This document shows positions 1 through 28,440 of a stretch of DNA of 64,000 bases, one piece after another; within the stretch, counting starts at the first letter, position 1; each line of letters opens with the position of its first letter. Under the pieces are notes generated by a model, which was not told where the DNA came from, ran no database searches, and saw only the letters and a list, made by a program, of their open reading frames with translations. Where the stretch lies: NCBI GenBank assembly GCA_949487135.1, contig CATAJQ010000002.1, positions 1-64,000 of the forward strand. The letters run 5' to 3'. The position numbers and the translations under genes are program-made. Source of the DNA: Cellvibrionales bacterium UBA7375. Its GTDB lineage: Bacteria; Pseudomonadota; Gammaproteobacteria; Pseudomonadales; Porticoccaceae.

Positions 1-76
1 GTCCCGTTCGTCTAGAGGCCTAGGACACCGCCCTTTCACGGCGGGAACAGGGGTTCGAACCCCCTACGGGACGCCA
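1..76 (+). tRNA. tRNA-Glu (TTC)
   Basis: A full cloverleaf is visible. The acceptor stem GTCCCGT pairs with ACGGGAC at 66-72, a G discriminator follows and CCA is encoded at 74-76. The anticodon stem CCGCC/GGCGG encloses a loop with TTC, which reads glutamate codons. The gene starts at the first base of the window, so a promoter or further tRNA genes may lie to the left. It is 29 bases from the following tRNA-Gly and probably shares its transcript. Confidence 0.96.
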
Positions 77-105
77 TTTGGTTATCGCAAGTCACTTCGG
101 TGTAT

Positions 106-181
106 GCGGGAATAGCTCAGTTGGTAGAGCGCAACCTTGCCAAGGTTGAGGTCGCCGGTTCGAACCCGGTTTCCCGCTCCA
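106..181 (+). tRNA. tRNA-Gly (GCC)
   Basis: The acceptor stem GCGGGAA pairs with TTCCCGC, with a T discriminator and an encoded CCA at 179-181. The anticodon stem CAACC/GGTTG holds the loop TTGCCAA, giving anticodon GCC for glycine. The D-arm (GCTCAGTTGGTAGAGC) and T-arm (CCGGTTCGAACCCGG) are standard. It follows tRNA-Glu closely in the same direction. Confidence 0.96.
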
Positions 182-235: not shown

Positions 236-2581
236 CTATAATTGAGTACCATTCACAAAAAGACTATCAAACTTAACGTCGGGGCTAGTCAACTGAATTT
301 TGACCGCTCTATCAAATGCTACAGGTGTCACTGTAATAATGTTATTACCCAATGCCAGTGCTTCTGCGTTTCCAAAGTAATCATTGCCATTGGCAGTTGT
401 TTTATAAACCCTATAGTTTGCACCCGTAGCAGGCAATTCGGTTATATTTATTGATAGTGTCTGGCTTGATTGGCTTGAAGTGCCATCAGAAGGGCGCGTC
501 AGAGTAATAACATTAGTCCATATTTCATTGTTGGTTGATGTAAATGCTGTGCTTTCACCCACTGATATTGGCGAAATTTGAATTATTTCTTCGGGATTGG
601 GCTCCGGATAACGTTGAGTTCCAGTGACAGAAAGAGCATTAAATCTTATATTAGGGCTAGAGATTTGAACTCTAACTGCTCTATCAAAACTTTCACCTTC
701 AACTGTAATAATATTGTTGCCTAGTACTAGTTCTTGGGGGTTTACACTAAACCAAAATCCATTGGCATTGGTCCTGATAACTCTATAGTTAGCGCCACTT
801 GGTGGTAGCTCAGTGATATTAATCGATAAAGTTTGCGCGCCTTGACTAGATGCGCCGTCAGACAAAAACGCCAAAGGAATCACATGAGTCCATGTGCTGT
901 CATCTCTGGGGATAAACGCTGTACTTTCACCTACCGTTATTTCAGGCGTTGAAACTGGCTCTGATAAGGTTTCAGGTGTTACCAATTTAACAGAGGTAAT
1001 TGCGGTATTTGAATCCGTTTCTATGCGAAGTGTTTTCTTACCTAAACCAAGTTCAAAAGCGTCAGACACAACAGTATGCCAGTTAGAAAGTGATCCTGTG
1101 TTTATTTGAATGGTTTGAAGGGACTCTTGTCCGGTTAAAAGTGTTAACGAAGTATTGGAAGAGGATGCTACTCGAATCTCTAGCTGATAGGTTTGTGATT
1201 CTTGAATATCAAAATCAAACTCTAAATAGCCAGTGCCTGAAGTATCACTAGTCACAGCAGTAATATTATCACTATCGGAAATTTCATTGTAAGTAAAGCC
1301 ATGCAAATTGGTTGCACCAACTGCTGGAATCTTGCTATTCGGCTGATATAAGTAACCGCTTCTGGGAATTGAGAAATACAGCTCACCTAAGGGTGTCGTC
1401 TCACCATTTGCCCCTAAAAGTCCGTTATGGGGAAAATTTCCCACGCCTTCCTTGTTGCGACCAACAAACCAAGCGTATCTGTAGATATTAGCCTCTGATT
1501 CAAGCCAGCGTGTTGTGTCCGCTAAATAATTCATATGTACATCGGGCGTCTCTGGCCAAATGGCACCTTGACCACCCGCATTACCAGCCCATTCAGTTAA
1601 CCAGACGGGTTTTCCATATTGATAAGCTTCCCTAATAAACTCTTTGAATCTTTCTTGATCTTTTCTGTAAACATGCACACCAATAAAATCAACTCGACAG
1701 TCAGTGCATGCGTCAAAAAAAGCATCGAGGTAATCCCATGCGCCATAAGTAGACGAATTGTTGACAGCAGGTCCTACTATTTTTAAGTTATAGTCATCAG
1801 CGATACTTTCTAATATCGGCCATGCGTTCGCTGCCTGCTGTGGTGTTAGGTTTGCCTGATTTTCAAAATTAGGTTCATTGAAGCCGAGCAAATACTTAAC
1901 ATCGGGATTGCTATCAAGATATTGCCGCATGTTATTTTCGTTAAAATTGAGACCCCACGCCATTGGCGTAAAATCAATTCCAAGAGATGGATAGACTTCT
2001 CTAACCGATTCGTTAGATGAAGGGCTCCAGTCATACCACCATGACATTCTTTCGCCAATTACTGCAAAATCTTGAGGTGAGAGTTCCTGTTGACCTCCCC
2101 CTGTTCCATAACCAATGCCTCGTTTTTCACTGAGTCGAGAACGTGGTAGATATTGTTCTATATAGTGTTGGATGTCAGAAGCTGAAGTACGTGAAGCATT
2201 ACTTGCAATTGCACCATTAATGAGGGGATCGCCTGAAATAGAAAACAAGTATCGCAAAAGGATAAGCCCATCAGTTAGTGCATCAATTTCTCCGTTGCCA
2301 TCAATATCTGCAATTTCTTGAATTGCATGCATTCTAGTTTCTACTTGAGTTGAAGTTAAGGTTGATTCTACTGATATGGCACCGTTGGTAAGGGAGTCAC
2401 CGGTCAGGCCGAAACTGAATCTTAATACAATCAGCCCATCTGTTAATGCATCAGTATTACCATCGTTATCGATATCCCAGCTCTGTGGACTACCATAGGC
2501 GAATGGAGCTGATAGGGTAATAACAACAAAAATTAAGAGGGGAGAGATAGTAAAATTGATTAACTTTGCCATAAATACCAA
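236..2581 (-). CDS. Secreted GH128-like beta-1,3-glucanase with dockerin-like module and CBM6/CBM56-like domains
   Basis: A secreted multidomain glycoside hydrolase of 781 residues. A signal peptide covers residues 1-30. Residues 34-146 are a dockerin-like module with two calcium-type loops, each ending in DALTDGL. Residues 153-410 match the Asl1-like/GH128 catalytic core: GFNEPN with E236 as likely acid/base and WLTEW with E330 as likely nucleophile. A CBM6-like beta-sandwich follows (about 430-535). Two homologous C-terminal repeats of about 110 residues (545-656, 667-781) end in FDRAV..Q..SP..., which resembles CBM56 beta-1,3-glucan-binding modules from memory. The predicted role is laminarin or other beta-1,3-glucan hydrolysis outside the cell. 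The start is a TTG at 2581 preceded by AGGAG at 5 bases; an ATG at 2572 is the alternative and also gives a signal peptide. The family call is good; the CBM names are less sure. Confidence 0.82.
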   Translation of the reverse strand: MVFMAKLINFTISPLLIFVVITLSAPFAYGSPQSWDIDNDGNTDALTDGLIVLRFSFGLTGDSLTNGAISVESTLTSTQVETRMHAIQEIADIDGNGEIDALTDGLILLRYLFSISGDPLINGAIASNASRTSASDIQHYIEQYLPRSRLSEKRGIGYGTGGGQQELSPQDFAVIGERMSWWYDWSPSSNESVREVYPSLGIDFTPMAWGLNFNENNMRQYLDSNPDVKYLLGFNEPNFENQANLTPQQAANAWPILESIADDYNLKIVGPAVNNSSTYGAWDYLDAFFDACTDCRVDFIGVHVYRKDQERFKEFIREAYQYGKPVWLTEWAGNAGGQGAIWPETPDVHMNYLADTTRWLESEANIYRYAWFVGRNKEGVGNFPHNGLLGANGETTPLGELYFSIPRSGYLYQPNSKIPAVGATNLHGFTYNEISDSDNITAVTSDTSGTGYLEFDFDIQESQTYQLEIRVASSSNTSLTLLTGQESLQTIQINTGSLSNWHTVVSDAFELGLGKKTLRIETDSNTAITSVKLVTPETLSEPVSTPEITVGESTAFIPRDDSTWTHVIPLAFLSDGASSQGAQTLSINITELPPSGANYRVIRTNANGFWFSVNPQELVLGNNIITVEGESFDRAVRVQISSPNIRFNALSVTGTQRYPEPNPEEIIQISPISVGESTAFTSTNNEIWTNVITLTRPSDGTSSQSSQTLSINITELPATGANYRVYKTTANGNDYFGNAEALALGNNIITVTPVAFDRAVKIQLTSPDVKFDSLFVNGTQL

Positions 2582-15517: not shown

Positions 15518-15593
15518 GTCCGGTTCGATTAACAGGATAAATCCGTCGCCTCCTAAGCGACTGCTGGGGGTTCGAGTCCCTCACCGGACGCCA
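15518..15593 (+). tRNA. tRNA-Arg (CCT)
   Basis: The acceptor stem GTCCGGT pairs with ACCGGAC at 15583-15589, followed by G and an encoded CCA. The anticodon stem GTCGC/GCGAC encloses CTCCTAA, giving anticodon CCT for AGG codons. The T-arm is GGGGGTTCGAGTCCCTC. It lies just before the secreted-protein gene cluster, a location sometimes used by integrating elements, but no attachment-site repeat was found. Confidence 0.95.
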
Positions 15594-15716
15594 TTTATTA
15601 AGCCCAATTATGTCTTTTTTTCTAATAAAACTGCTTCTATGATACAGTTGAAGAAATAAGTAGTATAAAATTAAACATTTAAATTTTGTTCAAAGCACAT
15701 TTTGAGGGTTTATATC

Positions 15717-17216
15717 ATGGTTTTTCAAGGCACGATAAAGAGTTTATTTAAGCTAGTGGTCTTTGTTTTTGTATTACTAATTTCCCCAAGCTATTTGTTT
15801 GCTGACCAATACTCAAAGTCATGGCAAGATCTAGATAAGAATCAAGCATGGAATGATAAGACGTATTATGAAGAAAAATCTTCTGATTTCTATGATGACA
15901 AAGCGGATTATGAATACAAACATCATTACGACGATGATGGATCTAAACATAATCATGAAAAGCGATGGTCTGACTATGTAAAAGAAGCTCGGTCTCATTT
16001 TAGAACGAGGTTGCGTGATCTGTTTCAGTATCTTCGTAGAGTAAGAGCTGCTTTGAAAGACCCAGATACTGACTGGGACAATTTTGATTGGAGTTATTGG
16101 GGCGATAAAGATGAGGATCAAACAGAAGATGATTCTTCTAATGATAGCTCTGATGATGGCGATACTTCAGATGATAATACCTCAGATGAAGATGATGCTT
16201 CAGATAATGATACCTCCGATGAAGGTGATGCTTCAGATGATGATGCCTCCGATGAAGATGATGCTTCAGATGATAATACCTCCGATGAAGGTGATGCTTC
16301 AGATGATAATACCTCCGATGATGGCGATGCTTCAGATGATTCCTCGGGTGAGGACACTGTGGACGATTCAACTGGTGAAGATATTTCGCTGATTCAGTCG
16401 ATTACTGTTGCTAATGAGCCAATGGGTTTGCTCAACAATAATGTTGAATTTGAAATAGCTTACAGCTCAAGTGATAACGATAATGAATTGTCTGGTCTGG
16501 GTTTGCGAATACACTTTGACAGTCGCGCGCTAACTTATATTTCTTCGTCTGATGTATTTGCGCAAGATATTATAGTCAGCGGTGAAGGGCCGGCCATAGA
16601 TGCTGCCGATTTTGACAATGATCCAACCACAGACAGCTATGTTTCCTATGGTTGGGCATCACTGCTCAATAACTGGCCAGGTACCGAACTTCCAGCATCA
16701 TTGCTAAAAATTACCTTCGGCGTTAACGGTTCTGTTAATGTGGATGATATGCCTTCTACAGTATTAAGTTTTTCAGCAATTACTACGACGGTAGGCTACG
16801 ATTTTGTCGGTGAAAGCTATGTGCTCGAGCTCGCTGAAACTGACGCAAGTTGGGATTTTGATGGCAGCGGCGAAGCTGATGCTTTAACCGATGGATTAAT
16901 CATGTTGCGTTATTCGTTTGGTCTTCGTGGTGAATCAATGGCTGAGGGTGCTATGCACCCAGAATCAGTTATGTCAGCTGAGCAGGTAGAGCAAAGAATG
17001 GTCAGTGCCTCAAAAATCGCTGATATTGATAATGATGGTCAGATTGACGCGTTAACCGATGGTTTATTATTGTTGAGACATCTTTTTGCTGTGGGGGATG
17101 AGGGGTTAACTCATGGTGCTGTCGGATCAAAGGCCTCGAGAAAAACGGGTACAGCAATCAGGGGCCATCTAAAAAAATACATGCCTAAAAGATGGAAAGA
17201 GCGTCACAAAGAATAG
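15717..17216 (+). CDS. Secreted acidic protein with cohesin-like and dockerin-like modules (scaffold-like)
   Basis: A 499-residue exported protein with no recognisable catalytic domain. A signal peptide covers about 1-29. Residues 30-130 are charged and rich in Tyr, Asp, Lys and His. Six 11-residue Ser/Asp/Thr repeats (144-209) form a highly acidic linker. Residues 224-373 form a cohesin-like beta-sandwich (GLGLRIHFDSRALTYIS and YGWASLLNNWP). Residues 378-490 are a dockerin-like module, with loops DFDGSGEADALTDGL and DIDNDGQIDALTDGL. The C-terminus is basic. The ATG at 15717 has GAGGG 8 bases upstream; a TTG at 15702 is less likely. The same two modules occur in the same order in the GH16 protein at 21449-27145. 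An adaptor or scaffold role on the cell surface or in a secreted complex is inference. Confidence 0.75.
   Translation: MVFQGTIKSLFKLVVFVFVLLISPSYLFADQYSKSWQDLDKNQAWNDKTYYEEKSSDFYDDKADYEYKHHYDDDGSKHNHEKRWSDYVKEARSHFRTRLRDLFQYLRRVRAALKDPDTDWDNFDWSYWGDKDEDQTEDDSSNDSSDDGDTSDDNTSDEDDASDNDTSDEGDASDDDASDEDDASDDNTSDEGDASDDNTSDDGDASDDSSGEDTVDDSTGEDISLIQSITVANEPMGLLNNNVEFEIAYSSSDNDNELSGLGLRIHFDSRALTYISSSDVFAQDIIVSGEGPAIDAADFDNDPTTDSYVSYGWASLLNNWPGTELPASLLKITFGVNGSVNVDDMPSTVLSFSAITTTVGYDFVGESYVLELAETDASWDFDGSGEADALTDGLIMLRYSFGLRGESMAEGAMHPESVMSAEQVEQRMVSASKIADIDNDGQIDALTDGLLLLRHLFAVGDEGLTHGAVGSKASRKTGTAIRGHLKKYMPKRWKERHKE
16146..16343 (+). repeat. Six tandem 33-bp repeats coding an acidic Ser/Asp linker
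   Basis: Six in-frame copies of a 33-base unit encode the consensus TSDEGDASDDN. The copies differ mainly at the third, fourth and last residues. The repeat also creates long but meaningless open frames in other frames. The copy number may vary between strains, since tandem units of this kind expand and contract by slippage. Confidence 0.93.
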
Positions 17217-17240
17217 TCGTCCGCAAAACAGAAAGTTTAA

Positions 17241-17265
17241 AGGCTTCCATAGGGAAGCCTTTTTT
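17241..17265 (+). terminator. Rho-independent terminator after the acidic scaffold-like gene
   Basis: AGGCTTCC pairs with GGAAGCCT around a 4-base loop, followed by a run of T. It lies 24 bases after the stop codon, so the acidic protein gene probably ends its own transcript here and the next gene has its own promoter. Confidence 0.88.
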
Positions 17266-17368
17266 AATTAACGCTTACATCATGCATATGCTTATAAAAA
17301 GGGTACGAATTGAACCACTCGAACGACAGATACATATCTTTACGTGGACAATAACCTTTTAAAGTGGT

Positions 17369-17384
17369 GACTCCTGGGTCACTA
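17369..17384. promoter_or_regulatory. Dyad GTGAC-N6-GTCAC upstream of the di-haem oxidoreductase gene
   Basis: GTGACTCCTGGGTCAC is a near-perfect inverted repeat about 90 bases upstream of the next start codon. A perfect 10-base dyad, ACTAATTAGT, overlaps its right edge. The central spacing is too short for a stable RNA hairpin, so a protein-binding site is more likely. No identified regulator is assigned. Confidence 0.3.
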
Positions 17385-17473
17385 ATTAGTTTGATATTAA
17401 TGCCCAGAGTTACTCAAATAAAACCAAATATATTATTATTGTATTGTAATAAAAATAGATAAGAAGGGTTCGG

Positions 17474-20400
17474 ATGTCACAGTTAATAAGATTTTTCCAT
17501 GTTTTTTTATATGTTCTCACATTGGTTCTTGTATCAGTTCCGGTGAAGGCTAACTCAAATGGCTCCTACAGCTGGGATATAGATCTTGATGGTCGTGTTG
17601 ACGCGCTTACCGATGGTTTGATTATTTTAAGACATAGTTTTGGACTTCAAGGGGCCGCGCTGACTGCAGGTGCTGTCTCTCAAGATTCACCATTAAACAG
17701 CAGCGAAGTAGAGGCGCGGGTTAATTTGATTGCGGATATTGCTGATGTTGATAGCAACAATAAAGTGGATGCTTTGACCGATGGTTTGATATTGCTGCGT
17801 TATATGTTCGGCTTAACAAATGAATCCTTAATAGCTGGCGCTGTAGCGACAGATGCAACTCGCTCAAGCGCTTTAGAAATCACTCAGTATCTCGCTACCT
17901 ATGAACCCGGACAGGCACCTGCTGACAGTGATGGTGATGGTGTTGCTGATACTGTGGATGCGTTTCCTAGTGATCCCAATGAGACCCAAGATGCTGATGG
18001 TGATGGTGTAGGTGATAACGCCGATGCTTTCCCTAATGATCCCAATGAAACCCTTGATGTCAACGGCAATGGTGTAGGTGATAATGCTGATGCAGTAAAT
18101 AACAGCGGCCCTCAATCTGATTACTGCGCTACTCCTCTTTATCATCTTAATATGCAGGCTGATTCAATGAGTCTTGTTAATTTGACCGTTGAGAATGTTG
18201 GTAATAACCAGCTGCGTATTGCAATTACCTCTGCAGATACCAGTGCAGTTGATAATTTAGTGATTGAGAGTTCAACTGGCGCAAATGTTGCAACTGCCAG
18301 TTCACTAGCCGCTGGTGAGTTAGCTAAAATATTAAGCTGGTCAGGATCTACTCCGGCAACCGAAACTTTCACCATTCTTTGGAGTAAAATCACTATGGGT
18401 GGTGATTGGATTGCAAGAGATATTTCAGTTCCGACGGATGCTGTTTGTGGTGGTGGCAATAACAGTGGGAACACAGGCTCAACTCCGGATGATTCAGGTT
18501 CAAACACACCGAATCCAGATGGTTCTGCGCCAACACCAACCGAGCCAAGTACCAGTGTCCTTTCAATATTTAGCGACGAATATACGGATATTTCAGGTGT
18601 TAACTTAAACCCTGATTGGGGGCAGGCAACTTCTGTTACTGTCTCAAACGGTAAGATTAATTATCAAAACCTCAATTATCAGGGTACCACTTTTGGTGGT
18701 CCACGTGATGTGTCTGGGTATGGATACTTCCATGTTGAAATAAATCCGCAACAATCTGGTTCTTTGCAGCTTTACCTTATCAACTCTGGTGCTGTTACGG
18801 GTAATGGTCCAATAGAAACTTATTATGATCTTAATTTAACCGCTAATCAGTGGAATAGTTTCGATATCCCTCTTGCGTCGTTTACGTCAGTGGTTGATCT
18901 AACCAGAGTTGATGAAATTAAGATTGTTGGTAGCGGCGCCATGTCGCTCGACAATTTATATTTTGGTGGCGAATCTACTAATGACAATGGTGGTAATGAT
19001 GACTCCTATCAGGGTGATGACGCTGTGCCTACTGAGGAAATCGCTGTTGCAGATGGCTATCTAGTTGGTGGTGTTAATTCTTCCAAGCCACAGTTTGTAG
19101 TATATGTTTTTGATAGTGATCCTATTGCTGGCGGAGTTAGCAGCTGTTACGGAGGCTGTGCCTCTGCTTGGCCTCCGATATATGTTGAAGATGATTCACC
19201 CTCTGGTGTCTCGAATCTGTCGTCAATTACTCGAAGTGATGGAACTGAGCAGGTTACATATGAAGGTCGCCCATTGTATTTCTATGCGGGAGATCAGCAA
19301 CCAGGTGACAGAACCGGTGATACTGTCAGCGGTTGGCACTCAATTGAATATGGCAATATCGGGCAGGTTAATAAATTGTACAATGACAGTACACCCTTAG
19401 AGCCTGTGTCCTCCTTTGTCAGAGATGATGGGGTTATTGTCACCCGAATAGCAGATCGCGGTAGGGACCGACATGCCAAGGATTCGGGGTTTCAAGACCA
19501 TTATGATCATTATTTAGCTCATTACTGGCAATTTAGAACTATGCGTATGCAGCTAGAGGACTATGTGCCTTTGGGGCAGAGTAAAATTGCTGTTACTTGG
19601 ATTACTGAAGCCCAGTTAGGCGCTAAAGAGTTTAGGGTTTGGTATGCAGGGCAAAATACTTCGGGTCAGTTCTGGTTCAATCCACAACCACTTGGTCAGC
19701 AGGCTAACCCAAATGAACCTGCTGTGGTTTATCATGGGCGTGGAACTTGGAATGATGACTTTGTTAAGACCAGTAATCAAGGCGGTCAACACAAATATAC
19801 CCTCAACATTACAAGACGTTGGCAGTTGGGTGGTCAGATTCAGGAAACACTTGCCACTGGGATGAATATGGAATTTGAGGCGAGTATGTTCTTACTTAAT
19901 CCTCCTGCGGGTACTCGTTTGAATTATTATGGTACCAGTTTCGTCTATGTGATTGGGGAGCAGGGTGTTCACCCTTTTGAATGGCAAACTGGACAGCAGG
20001 ACGGTACACCAATTCCCCAGAAAGGTTTAAGTGGCGGTTATACCACTCTGGGTTATAACTACACCAATGAGCCTGCTGGACGCTTTATGCAAATGGCGAC
20101 CAATATGAGTCCAGGTAATGCCGAACCTTTTGTTAGAGGTCGTCGTGTGCATCATACAAGCTTTGTTAACGGTGTTCATGGTGAGCGCAATGATAACCCT
20201 GTTTGGATACAGCAGGCAGGCAAAGCAGGTACTCATTATATTAATGAATCATGCGCTGGTTGCCATGTCCGAAATGGTCGCGCCCTAGTAGCCGATGTCG
20301 GTGATTCTTTAGATCGATGGGTATTTAAAGTTGGGGATGTAAATGGTGAGCCCTTAAGTTCAATTGGAAGCGTTCTTCAGCCGCAAAAAATTGGTTCTGG

Positions 20401-21343
20401 TTCCTCAGAAGGAAACGTGACCCTTGGGACCTGGACAGAGTTATCTAATGGGCTACGATCACCAAATTATCAGTTCTCCAATGGCACACCGCCGCAATTT
20501 TCGGCACGAATAGCGCCGTCACTGGTCGGTATGGGGCTTCTAGAAGCTATTGACGAATCAACAATTATTTCTTGGGCAGACGAGAATGACGCTAACAATG
20601 ATGGTATTTCCGGACGTCCATCCTTGGTAGAAGATCCTGCTAGTGGGGTTACTCGTTTGGGTCGTTTCGGCTATAAAGCCGGAACTTTTAGTGTCAAGCA
20701 CCAAATTGCCTCGGCATTTAATACCGATATGGGTGTTATGACCTCAATGTTGCCAAATCCAGATTGTGGTAGCCAGCAGACTAATTGTGGTAATTCTGGT
20801 TCTGAAATATCAGATCAACATATCGACGACTTAGTTAAATACGTATCGCTTTTAGGCGTGGGCGCTAGACGTAACTACAATAATCAGACAGGTGAGGCAT
20901 TGTTTCAGTCTATTGGTTGTGCCGGCTGTCACCGTCCATCAGTCGTAACCAGTAATCAGCATCCATTAGCGGAATTACGAGGTCAGACCATTTACCCATA
21001 CACGGACCTGCTTCTACATGATATGGGGCCAGGGCTTGCTGATAATCTTGCAGAAGGTTCAGCCAGTGGTTCTGAATGGCGAACTGCACCTCTTTGGGGC
21101 TTAGGTTTAACTAAAAATGTGATGCTAGGTGATCTAAAAGGTAATGATGAAATTTCACTAGCAGATGCGCAGAAACGTACAGCTAATATGCAAAGAATTG
21201 GTTATTTACATGATGGTCGCGCGCGGACTATTGATGAGGCTATTCGCTGGCATGGTGGCGAAGCACTTGACTCTAAAAATGCTTATGAAGCGCTTTCTAG
21301 TGGCCAAAGAACTGCTGTTATTGATTTTCTAGAAAGTTTATAG
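17474..21343 (+). CDS. Secreted di-haem c-type oxidoreductase with dockerin-like, TSP3 and carbohydrate-binding modules
   Basis: A 1,289-residue exported redox protein. The signal peptide ends near residue 27. Residues 33-145 are a dockerin-like module with the shared 56-residue loop spacing. Thrombospondin type-3 calcium repeats follow (150-206). Residues 362-498 resemble a beta-sandwich glycan-binding domain found in GH16 enzymes (WGQATSVTVSNGKINYQNLNYQG, ending SLDNLYFGG). Residues 520-625 match the secreted Lipoprotein_15 repeat (VYVFDSDP, CYGGCASAWPP). Residues 640-880 are unassigned. The C-terminal part, about 890-1289, is a DUF1111/di-haem oxidoreductase domain with CAGCH motifs at 927-931 and 1149-1153. 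Two covalently bound haems imply periplasmic maturation and export. A role in peroxide reduction or electron supply during glycan breakdown is inference. Confidence 0.82.
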   Translation: MSQLIRFFHVFLYVLTLVLVSVPVKANSNGSYSWDIDLDGRVDALTDGLIILRHSFGLQGAALTAGAVSQDSPLNSSEVEARVNLIADIADVDSNNKVDALTDGLILLRYMFGLTNESLIAGAVATDATRSSALEITQYLATYEPGQAPADSDGDGVADTVDAFPSDPNETQDADGDGVGDNADAFPNDPNETLDVNGNGVGDNADAVNNSGPQSDYCATPLYHLNMQADSMSLVNLTVENVGNNQLRIAITSADTSAVDNLVIESSTGANVATASSLAAGELAKILSWSGSTPATETFTILWSKITMGGDWIARDISVPTDAVCGGGNNSGNTGSTPDDSGSNTPNPDGSAPTPTEPSTSVLSIFSDEYTDISGVNLNPDWGQATSVTVSNGKINYQNLNYQGTTFGGPRDVSGYGYFHVEINPQQSGSLQLYLINSGAVTGNGPIETYYDLNLTANQWNSFDIPLASFTSVVDLTRVDEIKIVGSGAMSLDNLYFGGESTNDNGGNDDSYQGDDAVPTEEIAVADGYLVGGVNSSKPQFVVYVFDSDPIAGGVSSCYGGCASAWPPIYVEDDSPSGVSNLSSITRSDGTEQVTYEGRPLYFYAGDQQPGDRTGDTVSGWHSIEYGNIGQVNKLYNDSTPLEPVSSFVRDDGVIVTRIADRGRDRHAKDSGFQDHYDHYLAHYWQFRTMRMQLEDYVPLGQSKIAVTWITEAQLGAKEFRVWYAGQNTSGQFWFNPQPLGQQANPNEPAVVYHGRGTWNDDFVKTSNQGGQHKYTLNITRRWQLGGQIQETLATGMNMEFEASMFLLNPPAGTRLNYYGTSFVYVIGEQGVHPFEWQTGQQDGTPIPQKGLSGGYTTLGYNYTNEPAGRFMQMATNMSPGNAEPFVRGRRVHHTSFVNGVHGERNDNPVWIQQAGKAGTHYINESCAGCHVRNGRALVADVGDSLDRWVFKVGDVNGEPLSSIGSVLQPQKIGSGSSEGNVTLGTWTELSNGLRSPNYQFSNGTPPQFSARIAPSLVGMGLLEAIDESTIISWADENDANNDGISGRPSLVEDPASGVTRLGRFGYKAGTFSVKHQIASAFNTDMGVMTSMLPNPDCGSQQTNCGNSGSEISDQHIDDLVKYVSLLGVGARRNYNNQTGEALFQSIGCAGCHRPSVVTSNQHPLAELRGQTIYPYTDLLLHDMGPGLADNLAEGSASGSEWRTAPLWGLGLTKNVMLGDLKGNDEISLADAQKRTANMQRIGYLHDGRARTIDEAIRWHGGEALDSKNAYEALSSGQRTAVIDFLESL

Positions 21344-21362
21344 CCACAAATAAGAATGGACT

Positions 21363-21382
21363 TTTACAGTTATAACTGTAAA
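21363..21382. promoter_or_regulatory. Perfect 20-bp palindrome upstream of the GH16/CotH gene
   Basis: TTTACAGTTA is followed directly by its reverse complement. It lies 66 bases before the start codon of the GH16 gene and 19 bases after the stop of the oxidoreductase gene. No T-run follows, so it is a poor terminator and a good candidate operator. It was not seen elsewhere in the window by eye. Confidence 0.5.
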
Positions 21383-21448
21383 TTCCTATAAGGTATGATC
21401 TGCGTAGGATTAATAGATTAAAAATATATAATAATAGGAATATTGGGT

Positions 21449-24400
21449 ATGAAAGTTTTTACTCTCTATAATGAAGACAAGATGGTTTCCATTTTTTGTA
21501 GAAACATCTTCAATCTGTTTGCCGCCTTTAAATTAGCTCTTTCCATGCTGGCTTTTACAGCCATTATGACAGTGTCCCTATCAGCTAATGCCAACGTTAC
21601 ATCCTGGACAGGCTTTGGTGGTGCGGTAATTGCAAACGATGTATTTGAATTCCCAACTTCCGCAGATAGTTGGGCAGGTTATGCAAATACCAATGAAAGT
21701 TTTTATCCTCTGAGTTTACCTAACGGTGGAATTATTACCTTTACTGGGGCATCGAATAGCCCGGTGGGTGTTCGTTTTCGCCTTGAATTTAACCCATATC
21801 CTGATGTCGAGCCTGCTTATAATACATCCTCGGTGACGGTCAATGGCGCGCTCGAATCTATCTACTCTATTGCAATACCCTCACAGGGTAATAGAACCTT
21901 TAGTTCTGTTATCTTATATTTGGATAATCGTAACATACCAGTAACTATCAAGGATGCTCAGGTAATTCCAAATAGTTCCCAAAGTGGTTGTGACGACTCT
22001 CCACAAGCTAATGGTGTAATTAAAGTTGAGGCTGAGTGTTACAGTTCTGAAGAGGGCACTAATCTTGAATCTACTACCGATACGGGCGGCGGTCAAAATG
22101 TAGGATGGATTGATGAATTTGACTCCATGACCTACGTGGTGAATGTTCCGAGTTCTGGTAATTATCAGCTAAGTTACCGAACAGCTAGCGATAATGGCAG
22201 TAGTCCAGGTTTTAGAGTGTTTGTAAATAATCAATATGCTGATTTGTTCTCAATACCATCAACAGGTGGTTGGCAAAACTGGCAAACAGAGCAGGGTCGT
22301 ACTATTGCGCTTAATTCAGGCTCTCATATTATAAAATTTGATGCTGCATCTGCCGGTATGAATCTAAATTGGTTTAGCCTTACACCCACCAGTTCTGTGG
22401 TAGATGAGCCGCCGCAGAATGGAGATAATAATGGTGTTGCTGGTGTTGCTGTTGACTCAACCAAATGGTTTCATCAAACAAAGCTGCCCAATGGCTCGAG
22501 TTGGTTTAACGGTGAAATTCAGCACTATACCAATCGTATTCAAAACTCTTATGTCAGTGATGGAACCCTTAAAATTGTTGCCAAAAAAGAGGCGTATACT
22601 GACCAAGGTGTGACCAAGCAATATACGTCTGCTAGGCTTAATTCAAAATTTGCATTTAAGTATGGTGTGGCCGAGTTTAGAGCAAAAATGCCTGTTGGTG
22701 TCGGTACATGGCCGGCTATATGGATGTTAGGCAAAAATATCAGTGAGTCGGGTACTTATTGGGCGACTCAGGGTTATGGAACAACTAGTTGGCCTGCGGT
22801 AGGTGAAATAGATATCTTAGAGCACTGGGGCAGCAATCAAAACTATGCTCAAAGTGCTATGCATACCACCTCCAGTAACGGCAACACTATTAATAAAGGG
22901 GGTCGGTACGTTCCGACAATATCCTCCGAATTTCACACCTATACCATGGATTGGAATGCCAATCGTATAATTTTTAAAATTGATGGTGTAGAGCATTATA
23001 CCTACAATCCCAGTGTTAAAAATGCTGACACATGGCCCTATGATTCGGAGTTTTTCTTTTTACTCAATGTTGCCATTGAGTCTAATATTGCCGGTGGGTT
23101 CACACAAAGTGATATGGAAGTTGATTACGTTCGCGTTTATCAATCGGGTAATTTAGTATGGTCCGACGAATTTAATACCATAACCGATAATGATTCTGAT
23201 GGCGATGGGGTCAATGATAATGTCGATGCTTTCCCTGATGACGCGTCCGAGACAACTGATTCAGATGGTGATGGCGTAGGGGATAATGCTGACTATGCAC
23301 CTAATGACCCCAGTGTTCAGACAGCGCCTGTAACGCCAACCAGCGTAGCTGTAACATTTCAGGTTGATATGTCCGCAGAAGCAACTAACCCCAATGGTGT
23401 CTATCTGGCGGGTGGCGACTTTGGCCAAGATGGCTTTTTAATGTCTGACAATGGCAATGATCTATGGTCGGTGACGGTTTCAGTTCCTCCAAACAGTCAG
23501 TATCTGTACAAATTCCGCAACCAACCCTCTTATGGCACATGGAACGGTTTCGAGAGTGATGTTGAGCTAATTGCCGGTGGTTGTAGTACCGGTCAATATA
23601 ATGACCGCTACTTTGATGTGGGAATTGTTGACATTGTGTTACCTGTTGTAGCCTATGGTAGCTGTACTGAAGGTTCTAATGTTTCAAATCCTTCAGCGGT
23701 TAGCTTTACTGTGACTGCTGAAGATGCAACCTCTGTCAAATTTCACTCCAGTGGCTTTGGTTGGAATTCTAATGCACAAGTGGACGCAATCTCTAATGGC
23801 GATGGAACATGGACAGCAACCATTGATTCTGGTTTTTCTAGTAATGTTGACTACAAGTGGATAATTGATGGTGTCGAAGAAGACCTTTCAGGCGCTTATC
23901 GCGCGGGTGAATGTGCTAATAGCAATGTTGCCGCCTACGATGATACATGGTTTAACCGAACATGGGCTGTTGGTTCAGGTAATGTAACCGGTGATATAGC
24001 CAATTCATGTGGTGGTTCAACTGTCACAGCTGTATCCGTTACCTTTCAGGTCGATATGTCAGCCATTGACACTCATGCTGAGGGTGTTTATCTAGCAGGT
24101 GGTGGTATTTTTGGTCAAAATGGCCTGTTAATGCTTAATAATGGCAATGACCTGTGGTCTGTAACTACTACGCTGAATGCTAATACACGAGTTCTCTACA
24201 AATTCCGCAATCAACCGTCCTATGGCACATGGGACGGCTTTGAAGCTTCTACTGGCCTAATTGCCGACGGCTGTAATACAGGTGATTACAATGAACGTTA
24301 TGTCGATGTAGCAGAATCTAACATCGTATTGCCTGTTGTAGCCTATGGTAGTTGTACTGCTCAGCCCTTTGGTACACCACCAGGTCCAATAGACTCGGAC

Positions 24401-27145
24401 GGTGACGGTGTTGCAGATGAATTAGATGCTTTCCCAAATGATGGAAATGAGTCTGCAGATACAGACGGTGATGGTGTTGGTAATAATGCTGATGCTTTCC
24501 CCAATGACCCTAGTGAAACCCTGGATTCTGATAATGATGGTGTTGGCAATAATGCCGATGCATTCCCAAATGATCCCAGTGAAACAGAGGACACAGACGG
24601 AGATGGCGTAGGTGATAATTCAGATACTAACCCTCTCGATCCTAATATTTCAGGGGATTCACAGCAGGTCAGTGTTAGCAATGATCCAGTAGCATCACGA
24701 GGAACCCAGTTTACACTTGATGTGGGTTATGACGTGACTTCAGATGAAAATAACCTCACTGGTCTGGGTCTTCGCGTTCATTACGATAGTTCAAAGCTCA
24801 GTTTTGTTCAGGTTAGTGATTTTATTGATAAAGATAATATTTTGAGTGGAACCTTTAGTGAACCCGATAGCGGTGATTTTGACAATAATCCCATTACCGA
24901 CAGATTTATTTCACTGGCATGGGCATCCGTAAACGGTGATTGGCCGGATGTATCACTTCCTGCGAAGCTACTAAGCATTGAATTTCTTGTGGCTGATAAC
25001 GTTGCCCTGCAAGGTACAGAATACACAACCATTGGCTTCTCTAAATCAAGTAATTCCCAGGGGTATGATTTTTCCGCTACGAATTATCAATTAGCCATCC
25101 AATCAGCGACGTGGGATTTTGATAAAAATGGTAAAGCCGATGCACTCACCGATGGTTTAATGATGTTACGTCATGCTTTTGGGATCTCGGGTGAAGCTCT
25201 AGTCAGTGGTGCAATTGCACAGGACTCACCCCTCTCTAATCTTGAGGTAGAGCAGTCTATTAACTCATCGATGGTTATCGCAGATATCGATAATAATGGT
25301 CGCGTAGATGCATTAACCGATGGTTTGCTTTTACTGCGTTATCTCTTTGGTATTACAGGTAATTCCTTGGTTAACGGCGCAATTGGCTTGGAATCTACAA
25401 GAATCACTCATTCCGAGGTGGAACAGTATCTTGAAGCCCATATGCCCATAGAAAATACGGTAGAGCCCGACACCACACCGCCACAAATAACACTCAATGG
25501 CGATCAGACCGTAGGATTGGCAATAGGTGATAATTATTTGGAAGCTGGTGCTACAGCCACAGATATTACTGATGGTGATGTTGTAGTCACAATCTCTGGT
25601 TCAATCGGAAGCGAAATAGGTACTTACATCATAACTTATTCTGCTGTTGATGCGGCAGGCAATAGCTCCTCTGTGACACGAACTGTCGTCGTAGATCAAC
25701 CCCCAAATATTAGCAGCTTTAAGTTTTTACGATCTAATAATCCAAGCCTTTCCAATGACGTTACCCTTGATGTTAAAAGCAATACCATTTCCGGTCGAAT
25801 TCCCGAGAATGTTTCTGTTAAATCGTTGGTTGCAAGTTACGTTCATAATGGATCTGAAGTAAGGGTTTCGTCCGCAGTTCAGGCAGAGGGTTCCTCGGGC
25901 AATGACTTTACTCAACCGGTTGAATATAAAATTTCTAAAGCTTCTGGTGTCAGTAAAACTTATTCAGTGGACGTAACTAAATTCACTGGTTTACCTATTG
26001 TCTACATTAACACTACAAACTATGTGGGTATTGATTCGAAAGAGGAATATGTAACAGGTACTATCAGTGTTGATGGCGGTAGACATGTTCCAGACATGCC
26101 ATCAACCGCTATTGAAATTAGAGGTAGGGGTAATTCCACATGGGATCTCCACCCCAAAAAACCTTATCAAATGAAATTCTCCTCTAAGGAGGAATTTCTT
26201 GGTATGCCGGAGGACAAAAAATGGCTCTTTTTAGCTGAGTATTCAGACAAGACCCTATTGCGAAATACTACTGTGTTTGAAATGGGTTATATCAGTGACC
26301 TAGACTGGACACCACAAAGCGAATTTGCCGAGGTTTACCTAAATAATCAGTATCAAGGGACTTACAATATCACCCAAAAAGTTGAAGAAACTAATAGACG
26401 GGTGGCAATTACTAATGATGGGTTCTTATTAGAGATTGATCAAATATTCCGTCTTGATCCTGATGATGTTTATTTTTCAACAGGTCAGTTTAGTGTCATT
26501 GCAATTAAAGAACCTAATATTGAGCAGGTTGATGAAAACGGCTTATCATTCAGTCAAGATTCACGCTATATTTATATCAACAATTTTGTTAATCAATTTG
26601 AAGATGTTTTATTCAGCAGTAACTTTGCCAATTCCGTTTCTGGCTATGCTGCCTACATCGATGTTGATAGCTTTGTCGATTGGTTTTTAATTAACGAAAT
26701 CATCAAAAATGTTGATGCAAGATGGTTTTCAAGCATTTTCTTTCACCTTATACCGGGTGAAAAAATTAAAATGGGACCTCTGTGGGATCATGACCTAGTC
26801 TTTGGAAATACTGACTATGCAGATAGCCAGTACGCAAATGGTTGGTGGATACAACAAAATCCATGGATTAACAGATTGCTTGATGATCCTAATTTTGTGG
26901 CAAAAGTTAGAACGAGATTTGATTATTACCGAAATAATGAACAGTTTATTCTTGATAAAATTGATGCTTATGCAGAAAAGTTACAATGGGCTCAGCAGGA
27001 GAATGATGATAGATGGCAAACCCTAGGTCAGTATGTTTGGCCTAACCCCGTTGTATTCGAAACCTATCAAGAAGAAGTTGACCATATGAAGCAATGGTAC
27101 CAAACTCGCATGAACTGGTTGGATAACGCAATAGACTCACTATAA
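21449..27145 (+). CDS. Giant secreted GH16 beta-1,3-glucanase with CBM6, cohesin-like, dockerin-like and CotH domains
   Basis: A 1,898-residue exported protein. The signal peptide ends near residue 48. A beta-rich N-terminal domain (49-175) precedes a CBM6 (190-314). The GH16 catalytic domain spans about 330-575; GEIDILEHWG gives nucleophile E453 and acid/base E458. TSP3 repeats (580-620, 980-1062) bracket two homologous domains (633-740, 862-970) with a third beta domain between. A cohesin-like domain (1072-1218) is followed by a dockerin-like module (1221-1333). An Ig-like domain of the DUF5011 kind lies at 1344-1416. A CotH kinase-like domain fills about 1515-1898, with GRGNSTWDLHPKKPYQMKF and GPLWDHDLVFGN. 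The ATG at 21449 has AGGA upstream; TTG at 21443 is possible. Laminarin hydrolysis is well supported; the role of CotH here is unknown. Confidence 0.85.
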   Translation: MKVFTLYNEDKMVSIFCRNIFNLFAAFKLALSMLAFTAIMTVSLSANANVTSWTGFGGAVIANDVFEFPTSADSWAGYANTNESFYPLSLPNGGIITFTGASNSPVGVRFRLEFNPYPDVEPAYNTSSVTVNGALESIYSIAIPSQGNRTFSSVILYLDNRNIPVTIKDAQVIPNSSQSGCDDSPQANGVIKVEAECYSSEEGTNLESTTDTGGGQNVGWIDEFDSMTYVVNVPSSGNYQLSYRTASDNGSSPGFRVFVNNQYADLFSIPSTGGWQNWQTEQGRTIALNSGSHIIKFDAASAGMNLNWFSLTPTSSVVDEPPQNGDNNGVAGVAVDSTKWFHQTKLPNGSSWFNGEIQHYTNRIQNSYVSDGTLKIVAKKEAYTDQGVTKQYTSARLNSKFAFKYGVAEFRAKMPVGVGTWPAIWMLGKNISESGTYWATQGYGTTSWPAVGEIDILEHWGSNQNYAQSAMHTTSSNGNTINKGGRYVPTISSEFHTYTMDWNANRIIFKIDGVEHYTYNPSVKNADTWPYDSEFFFLLNVAIESNIAGGFTQSDMEVDYVRVYQSGNLVWSDEFNTITDNDSDGDGVNDNVDAFPDDASETTDSDGDGVGDNADYAPNDPSVQTAPVTPTSVAVTFQVDMSAEATNPNGVYLAGGDFGQDGFLMSDNGNDLWSVTVSVPPNSQYLYKFRNQPSYGTWNGFESDVELIAGGCSTGQYNDRYFDVGIVDIVLPVVAYGSCTEGSNVSNPSAVSFTVTAEDATSVKFHSSGFGWNSNAQVDAISNGDGTWTATIDSGFSSNVDYKWIIDGVEEDLSGAYRAGECANSNVAAYDDTWFNRTWAVGSGNVTGDIANSCGGSTVTAVSVTFQVDMSAIDTHAEGVYLAGGGIFGQNGLLMLNNGNDLWSVTTTLNANTRVLYKFRNQPSYGTWDGFEASTGLIADGCNTGDYNERYVDVAESNIVLPVVAYGSCTAQPFGTPPGPIDSDGDGVADELDAFPNDGNESADTDGDGVGNNADAFPNDPSETLDSDNDGVGNNADAFPNDPSETEDTDGDGVGDNSDTNPLDPNISGDSQQVSVSNDPVASRGTQFTLDVGYDVTSDENNLTGLGLRVHYDSSKLSFVQVSDFIDKDNILSGTFSEPDSGDFDNNPITDRFISLAWASVNGDWPDVSLPAKLLSIEFLVADNVALQGTEYTTIGFSKSSNSQGYDFSATNYQLAIQSATWDFDKNGKADALTDGLMMLRHAFGISGEALVSGAIAQDSPLSNLEVEQSINSSMVIADIDNNGRVDALTDGLLLLRYLFGITGNSLVNGAIGLESTRITHSEVEQYLEAHMPIENTVEPDTTPPQITLNGDQTVGLAIGDNYLEAGATATDITDGDVVVTISGSIGSEIGTYIITYSAVDAAGNSSSVTRTVVVDQPPNISSFKFLRSNNPSLSNDVTLDVKSNTISGRIPENVSVKSLVASYVHNGSEVRVSSAVQAEGSSGNDFTQPVEYKISKASGVSKTYSVDVTKFTGLPIVYINTTNYVGIDSKEEYVTGTISVDGGRHVPDMPSTAIEIRGRGNSTWDLHPKKPYQMKFSSKEEFLGMPEDKKWLFLAEYSDKTLLRNTTVFEMGYISDLDWTPQSEFAEVYLNNQYQGTYNITQKVEETNRRVAITNDGFLLEIDQIFRLDPDDVYFSTGQFSVIAIKEPNIEQVDENGLSFSQDSRYIYINNFVNQFEDVLFSSNFANSVSGYAAYIDVDSFVDWFLINEIIKNVDARWFSSIFFHLIPGEKIKMGPLWDHDLVFGNTDYADSQYANGWWIQQNPWINRLLDDPNFVAKVRTRFDYYRNNEQFILDKIDAYAEKLQWAQQENDDRWQTLGQYVWPNPVVFETYQEEVDHMKQWYQTRMNWLDNAIDSL
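23345..24358 (+). repeat. Duplicated VTFQVDMS domain within the GH16 gene
   Basis: Two diverged copies of one domain are encoded at 23345-23668 and 24032-24358. Both run from VTFQVDMS through YLYK/VLYK-FRNQPSYGTW to IVLPVVAYGSCT. A different beta domain sits between them. The near-identical FRNQPSYGTW segments suggest a recent internal duplication. They are likely accessory glycan-binding domains, but no family is assigned with confidence. Confidence 0.75.
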
Positions 27146-28349: not shown

Positions 28350-28440
28350 TGGCGGTGGGATAGGGATTCGAACCCTAGATAGGCTATTAACCTATGCCAG
28401 TTTTCAAGACTGGTGCATTCAACCGCTCTGCCATCCCACC
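28350..28440 (-). tRNA. tRNA-Ser (TGA)
   Basis: Read on the minus strand, the acceptor stem GGTGGGA pairs with TCCCACC, with a G discriminator and encoded CCA. The anticodon stem CCAGT/ACTGG encloses a loop containing TGA for UCA codons. The long variable arm (CATAGGTTAATAGCCTATC) marks a class II tRNA, as expected for serine. Confidence 0.95.

Follow-up and report, generated by a model that had tools for sequence, protein, structure and literature searches.

We analyzed a 64,000-nucleotide stretch (the window) of the genome of Cellvibrionales bacterium UBA7375 (contig CATAJQ010000002.1, positions 1 to 64,000), in which four secreted proteins share a dockerin-like module and two of them also carry a cohesin domain. 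Partner domains were assigned with Pfam, and the signal sequences of the four proteins were judged by eye. On the minus strand, a GH128-type glucanase (236 to 2581) consists of a signal sequence, an N-terminal dockerin-like module (2144 to 2482, minus strand, located by protein search), a catalytic core (PF11790, Glyco_hydro_cc/GH128-type; E, 1.1e-59), and a carbohydrate-binding module (CBM) resembling CBM6, for which the CBM_6 match has an E value of 9.2e-6 yet, at 26.4 bits, lies below the cut-off of 28.9. The other three genes lie together on the plus strand. An acidic protein (15702 to 17216) has a signal sequence, an acidic repeat linker, a cohesin (16386 to 16835; E, 3.9e-55 with a profile that includes this domain), and a dockerin-like module (16848 to 17186) starting 4 residues past the cohesin. 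Both profiles match this protein, which has no Pfam domain at an E of ≤1, and its architecture would be that of an adaptor without a recognized catalytic domain. The di-haem oxidoreductase (DHOR) protein (17474 to 21343) combines a signal sequence and acidic calcium-type repeats (by eye) with a dockerin-like module (17570 to 17908; E, 7.1e-39), Lipoprotein_15 repeats (5.6e-17), and the DHOR domain (2.1e-64). Finally, a 1900-residue protein (21443 to 27145) comprises CBM6 (CBM_6, 1.4e-18), GH16 (4.3e-18), weak CBM20/48-like repeats (CBM_20, 1.4e-5; CBM_48, 0.0028), a cohesin (24662 to 25102), a dockerin-like module (25109 to 25447) starting 2 residues past it, an Ig-like domain (Bact_surface_Ig-like, 8.9e-14), and a CotH kinase domain (5.5e-44).

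A preliminary description of this DNA had placed the same module in these four proteins, and our protein search recovered all 4 sets of coordinates exactly. It had also proposed the two cohesin-like domains, which a profile including them recovered at 16386 to 16832 and 24659 to 25102. The module partners that it named (GH16, GH128-type, and DHOR) and the absence of catalysis from the acidic protein agree with the Pfam results. It overlooked the CotH domain that closes the GH16 protein and the Lipoprotein_15 repeats of the DHOR protein.

We found that the four 113-residue modules are 46 to 58% identical in pairs. Window module pairs score 270 to 341, versus a maximum of 62 in 1800 shuffles, and the two window cohesins score 289, versus a maximum of 68 in 2000 shuffles; these shuffled-sequence controls ruled out chance similarity of the modules. 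Each window module is an internal duplication whose halves are 29 to 43% identical, and each contains two calcium-type loops of 13 residues. The loop residues D1, D3, and the terminal D are conserved in 39/39 cases, and position 5 is N, D, or S in 39/39. Type I dockerins have two F-hand calcium loops of 12 residues with the pattern D-x-D-x-[DN]-G-...-D. The PDB dockerin chains that were matched are 60 to 88 residues long and have a loop one residue shorter, seen as a gap in the alignment. From its loops, the enlarged dockerin is predicted to bind calcium. A literature search for noncanonical dockerin loops found nothing.

The Pfam dockerin type I family (PF00404; curated cut-off, 22.9 bits) is passed by 1/13 copies in this genome (C6, 24.3 bits). 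When 10 copies were scanned singly, the next best scored 20.2 bits, and the window copies among them scored 14.9 and 15.2 bits, with one unreported; the window module at 25109 to 25447 scored 13.2 bits. For the two remaining dockerin proteins of the genome, no Dockerin_1 match is listed at an E of ≤0.01. Searching PDB sequences with one window tandem as the query gave no match.

For the cohesins, PF00963 (curated cut-off, 24.1 bits) is passed by two domains of this genome, C42:353-688 (33.1 bits) and C42:5345-5710 (27.4 bits), which score 34.2 and 28.4 bits in isolation. These were the 2 that passed among 8 domains scanned singly, where the window domain at 24662 to 25102 reached 19.6 bits; 5/8 went unreported at an E of ≤0.05, including the one at 16386 to 16835. 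We placed these five by homology to the copies that pass PF00963. According to the preliminary description, module families resolving into unrelated folds would have spoken against association. For the cohesin half we can reject this, because the beta-sandwich cohesin fold was found. Three C-terminal cohesins (L040, 8075 to 14137, minus strand; L041, 1 to 1521, plus strand; L201, 2415 to 7925, plus strand) lack the last strands and have a matching strand pair before the domain. They belong to the GH5-type lipoprotein described below, its relative in genome G235, and the C5 protein, and the preceding pair scores 22 to 23 bits in two and 17.6 bits in C5. From this strand order, the three cohesins are apparently circularly permuted.

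The module set extends far beyond the window. The genome (1.44 Mb in 47 contigs, 92% complete) contains 14 dockerin-like matches (13 near full length and 1 half) and 10 cohesin-like matches, of which two are incomplete where a contig stops; several module genes run into a contig end, and open-frame lengths were counted from stop to stop. The nearest named module-bearing records are metagenome-assembled genomes labelled Porticoccaceae, SAR92 clade, Cellvibrionales, and Pseudomonadales. On the basis of this kinship, the host is probably a marine gammaproteobacterium of the SAR92 group. Pfam glycoside hydrolases are present in 4/14 dockerin proteins, namely, the GH128-type protein, two GH16 proteins with CBM6, and a GH5 protein with CBM6. 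A dockerin-bearing fragment on C43 resembles the start of GH3 by eye only, and Pfam lists no GH3 there. The other dockerin proteins of the genome include a beta-propeller protein and a lipoprotein that carries CotH and lamin-tail domains. The proteins that have a cohesin but no dockerin include the C42 lipoprotein (358 residues); C30, a cadherin-repeat fragment of 746 residues in which there are two cohesins; the C5 fragment; and the C38 lipoprotein (2021 residues), which has GH5-type and CBM6 domains and whose gene adjoins two GH17 genes and a sugar transporter.

To describe the wider cargo, we scanned 72 of the 89 complete dockerin proteins with near-duplicates removed, taking the 25 commonest of 54 families for 62 of them. 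Among the matches listed are proteases, a peroxidase, propellers, CotH, LRR proteins, and FG-GAP proteins. CotH kinase domains recur on module-bearing proteins (window 21443 to 27145; L042, 7881 to 11204; and, by eye, L219, 776 to 6784), where they are joined to GH16 or to a lamin tail domain. They appear in 5/72 scanned dockerin proteins among the matches listed. CotH kinases on components may regulate assembly. A further type of dockerin protein is secreted, collagen-like (GPKGETGPKGE) or related, and has a half-length module (L045, 1312 to 2463; L217, 67 to 1443); in some SAR92 genomes its gene lies beside an anchored cohesin gene on the opposite strand. Of the 38 genomes in the family that have either module, the 10 that measure ≤1.7 Mb average 6.6 modules per Mb, compared with 1.9 in larger ones. 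This is a heavy investment for small genomes.

We then divided 174 nonredundant module-bearing proteins, some of them cut by contig or locus ends, into 36 with cohesin only, 108 with dockerin only, and 30 with both. Among those with complete N termini, our own pattern search found a lipobox in 7/30 cohesin-only, 7/88 dockerin-only, and 0/17 combined proteins (7/30 versus 7/105, P = 0.015, relatedness ignored). In 6/10 fetched loci of SAR92 relatives, a cohesin protein ends by eye in a GGGC...R/K-rich, sorting-type tail. We scanned three such proteins and found that JDVT-CTERM is above the cut-off in two and below it in one (25.5 versus 27), and that all three have a choice-of-anchor U domain above its cut-off. 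In more distant genomes, the cohesin protein of G371 has a C-terminal IPTL-CTERM match (22.7 versus a cut-off of 20.5), and that of G536 has an N-terminal lipobox pattern. Large repeat proteins hold up to four cohesins (L198) and have ends that look by eye like type I secretion signals; for the one that was scanned, C30, NCBIfam gave neither a secretion model nor an anchor model. Two proteins, L119 (551 residues) and L204 (576 residues), are arranged as cohesin, acidic calcium-type repeats, cohesin, and dockerin, which suggests an adaptor architecture.

In 28 distinct tandems the dockerin lies close behind the cohesin, and the gap between profile matches is 2 residues in 21 of them. A structure model of a tandem has a predicted template modelling score (pTM) of 0.82, with high confidence nearly throughout. 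Because of this score, the model suggests that the cohesin and dockerin of a tandem stand in a fixed relation. In a tree of 70 cohesins, tandem copies and cohesin-only copies clustered, with 4 and 5 label changes versus about 22 and 23 after shuffling, a clustering to which near-copies contribute.

We next asked how the two families are distributed. Among 112 genomes of the family, the module is present in 37, cohesin in 23, and both in 22 (Fisher P = 1.5e-12; 2.8e-5 within the genus; relatedness ignored). The sole family genome that is cohesin-positive and dockerin-negative is G219, whose cohesin match is interrupted by stop codons, possibly an assembly error. Module counts correlate across the 38 genomes with either (Spearman, 0.56), and 9 genus members without a dockerin have no cohesin with the broader profile. 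We also drew an even sample of 369 genomes from the class and scored no more than 12 or 10 candidates in each. Dockerin was found in 4 and cohesin in 3, all 3 of which have both: this genome, G371, and G536. The cohesin and dockerin genes lie on one contig about 2 to 3 kb apart in G371 and about 9 kb apart in G536. Across the order (194 genomes), dockerin was found in 3 and cohesin in 2. Genomes chosen solely for a dockerin locus contained a cohesin in 21/33 cases; these 33 come from the 40 genomes behind named loci after the 7 closest to the window were excluded, and at least 8 of the 21 seem already counted in the family, as their match places are identical.

Taken together, the data point to a non-cellulosomal, surface-anchored cohesin-dockerin network that serves partly in β-glucan breakdown, and we consider this reading likely. 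Secreted proteins (the GH128-type, two GH16, GH5, DHOR, CotH, and other proteins) carry the enlarged, putatively calcium-binding dockerin. Dockerin-less cohesins sit on lipoproteins, large cadherin-repeat proteins, and, in relatives, JDVT-CTERM and IPTL-CTERM proteins. The GH16-CotH protein and putative adaptors, among them the acidic window protein, have the two modules in tandem. According to this model, a secreted enzyme would use its dockerin to bind a cohesin on an anchor or adaptor, tandem units would lengthen the chain, and enzymes would thus remain at the surface of the cell or within a complex on algal glucan. We infer that dockerin and cohesin bind each other, that binding depends on calcium and is specific for the partner, and that beta-glucan is a main target. 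The glucanases, CBM6 modules, and neighboring GH17 genes suggest a beta-glucan such as laminarin as one substrate, and the wide cargo suggests a general tethering system. The preliminary description had proposed extracellular proteins that could join to one another or to the cell surface as they degrade laminarin. The architectures, anchor signals, and co-occurrence of the module families favor such a set, in which binding is predicted; β-glucan as its sole function is unsupported, since the cargo includes proteases, a peroxidase, propellers, and LRR proteins.

Several results weigh against this network. Even with the broader profile, cohesin was undetected in 15/37 dockerin-positive family genomes, including G196, which has 11 dockerin-like modules, and we therefore rejected an obligate pair. 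PF00963 found no cohesin in the dockerin-only family genomes tested, but it also misses 4/7 cohesin-positive genomes. Either these 15 genomes have a more divergent partner or the module has a different role in them. In addition, a Foldseek search with the isolated module returned 24 weak matches, none significant and none to a dockerin, versus 6/7 for VIA. Both results fit a calcium-stabilized secretion or folding module, or one that binds some other partner, and in either case no binding to these cohesins, with the two families merely sharing secreted multidomain proteins. We regard this as quite unlikely, because cohesin almost always occurs with dockerin (22/23 in the family and 3/3 in the class sample), the two genes are close neighbors in the distant relatives G371 and G536, and there are 28 distinct tandem fusions.

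The short linkers and confident model of the tandems would also suit a pair that closes within its own chain as a rigid spacer, with little or no assembly between proteins. This is very improbable given that dockerin proteins mostly lack a cohesin of their own, that 36 cohesin proteins (some cut by contig or locus ends) lack a dockerin, and that the cohesins of the latter mostly cluster away from tandem ones. An unlikely, though somewhat less remote, alternative is that the network is chiefly adhesive, between cells or to matrix or particles, and that the enzymes are passengers. The glycoside hydrolases on 4/14 dockerin proteins argue against this, as does the C38 lipoprotein, whose cohesin is joined to GH5-type and CBM6 domains and whose gene has two GH17 genes and a sugar transporter as neighbors. 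The surface-anchored network can tentatively be extended. SAR92, including its lineages of 1.2 to 1.7 Mb, might build an outer membrane-tethered, chain-extensible, multienzyme "glucanosome" on algal beta-glucan. Its parts would be the 113-residue module with two 13-residue calcium loops, as a new dockerin class, and the cohesins of that class, including the circularly permuted cohesin on the GH5 lipoprotein. We hold this joint reading to be possible but less than probable.

tRNA genes (window 1 to 181, 15518 to 15593, and 28350 to 28440) adjoin the module genes. The GH128-type gene adjoins tRNA-Glu and tRNA-Gly, and the cluster at 15.7 to 27.1 kb is flanked by tRNA-Arg and tRNA-Ser. The relatives L121 and L115 retain the Gly/Glu and Ser tRNA neighbors, and a tRNA is present in 4/22 scanned loci. 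We saw no composition anomaly indicating recent transfer, with a G+C content of 0.39 to 0.46 across the first 32 kb of the window.

If the network is real, small plankton use modular assembly to keep glucanases on the cell surface, which is relevant to the question of who obtains sugars from algal glucan; a glucanosome would amount to a large, cellulosome-like apparatus among ocean plankton. SAR92 was reported to reach as much as about 12% during a North Sea bloom (PMC10108472). The system would further provide a new cohesin-dockerin pair that may be orthogonal, and its anchor, adaptor, and client genes make the role of non-cellulosomal cohesins and dockerins directly testable.

Most of what is known about cohesin- and dockerin-based tethering of enzymes comes from anaerobic degraders of lignocellulose. 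In the cellulosome, a primary scaffoldin with a cohesin array and a CBM binds dockerin-bearing enzymes, and clostridial cellulosomes are anchored by S-layer or sortase types. The system described here resembles the clostridial cellulosome (Clostridium thermocellum and relatives, type I) in its cohesin fold, duplicated calcium-type dockerin loops, dockerin-bearing glycoside hydrolases with CBMs, multicohesin proteins, anchor signals, two-module adaptors, and CotH components. It differs in its Gram-negative marine host, its 113-residue module with 13-residue loops, its lipobox, JDVT-CTERM, or IPTL-CTERM anchors, and the frequent tandem fusion of cohesin and dockerin. We found no long cohesin array in this incomplete genome. 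The multicohesin proteins have two cohesins (C30), four (L198), or two plus a dockerin (L119 and L204), and none was seen as a CBM-bearing array. Also among the closest known systems are the non-cellulosomal cohesin of Archaeoglobus fulgidus (2xdh) and cohesin modules of Clostridium perfringens (2vo8, 2jh2, and 2w1n). The window cohesin profiles gave no sequence-level match to these or any other PDB chains at an E of ≤10.

Among marine polysaccharide degraders, Saccharophagus degradans 2-40 is described, in the available text, as having two dockerin-like and six cohesin-like open reading frames, with binding left for later study (PMC2386152). Compared by description only, the present genome has 14 and 10 matches in 1.44 Mb, tandems, and anchor signals on some cohesin partners. 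The available text on freshwater Planctomycetes proposes a hypothetical non-cellulosomal complex for peptide degradation, the "planctosome," with an anchor (LTD, TSP3, and cohesin), an adaptor (dockerin, HYR, and cohesin), and dockerin-bearing enzymes or peptidases (PMC6461901). By description, glucanases with CBM6 are prominent here in comparison. CotH-like domains have been noted in some cellulosomes, again from partial text (PMC12484212). From these precedents, as far as their accessible text goes, a system of this kind is already known. The accessible portions of the open-licence PMC literature (including PMC6461901, PMC2386152, PMC12915301, PMC12484212, PMC10066038, and PMC10108472) gave no cohesin-dockerin system in SAR92. 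As far as our searches reach, four things are new here: how widely the system extends within a small marine genome, the 13-residue loops of the enlarged dockerin, the tandems on enzymes, and the sorting-signal anchors.
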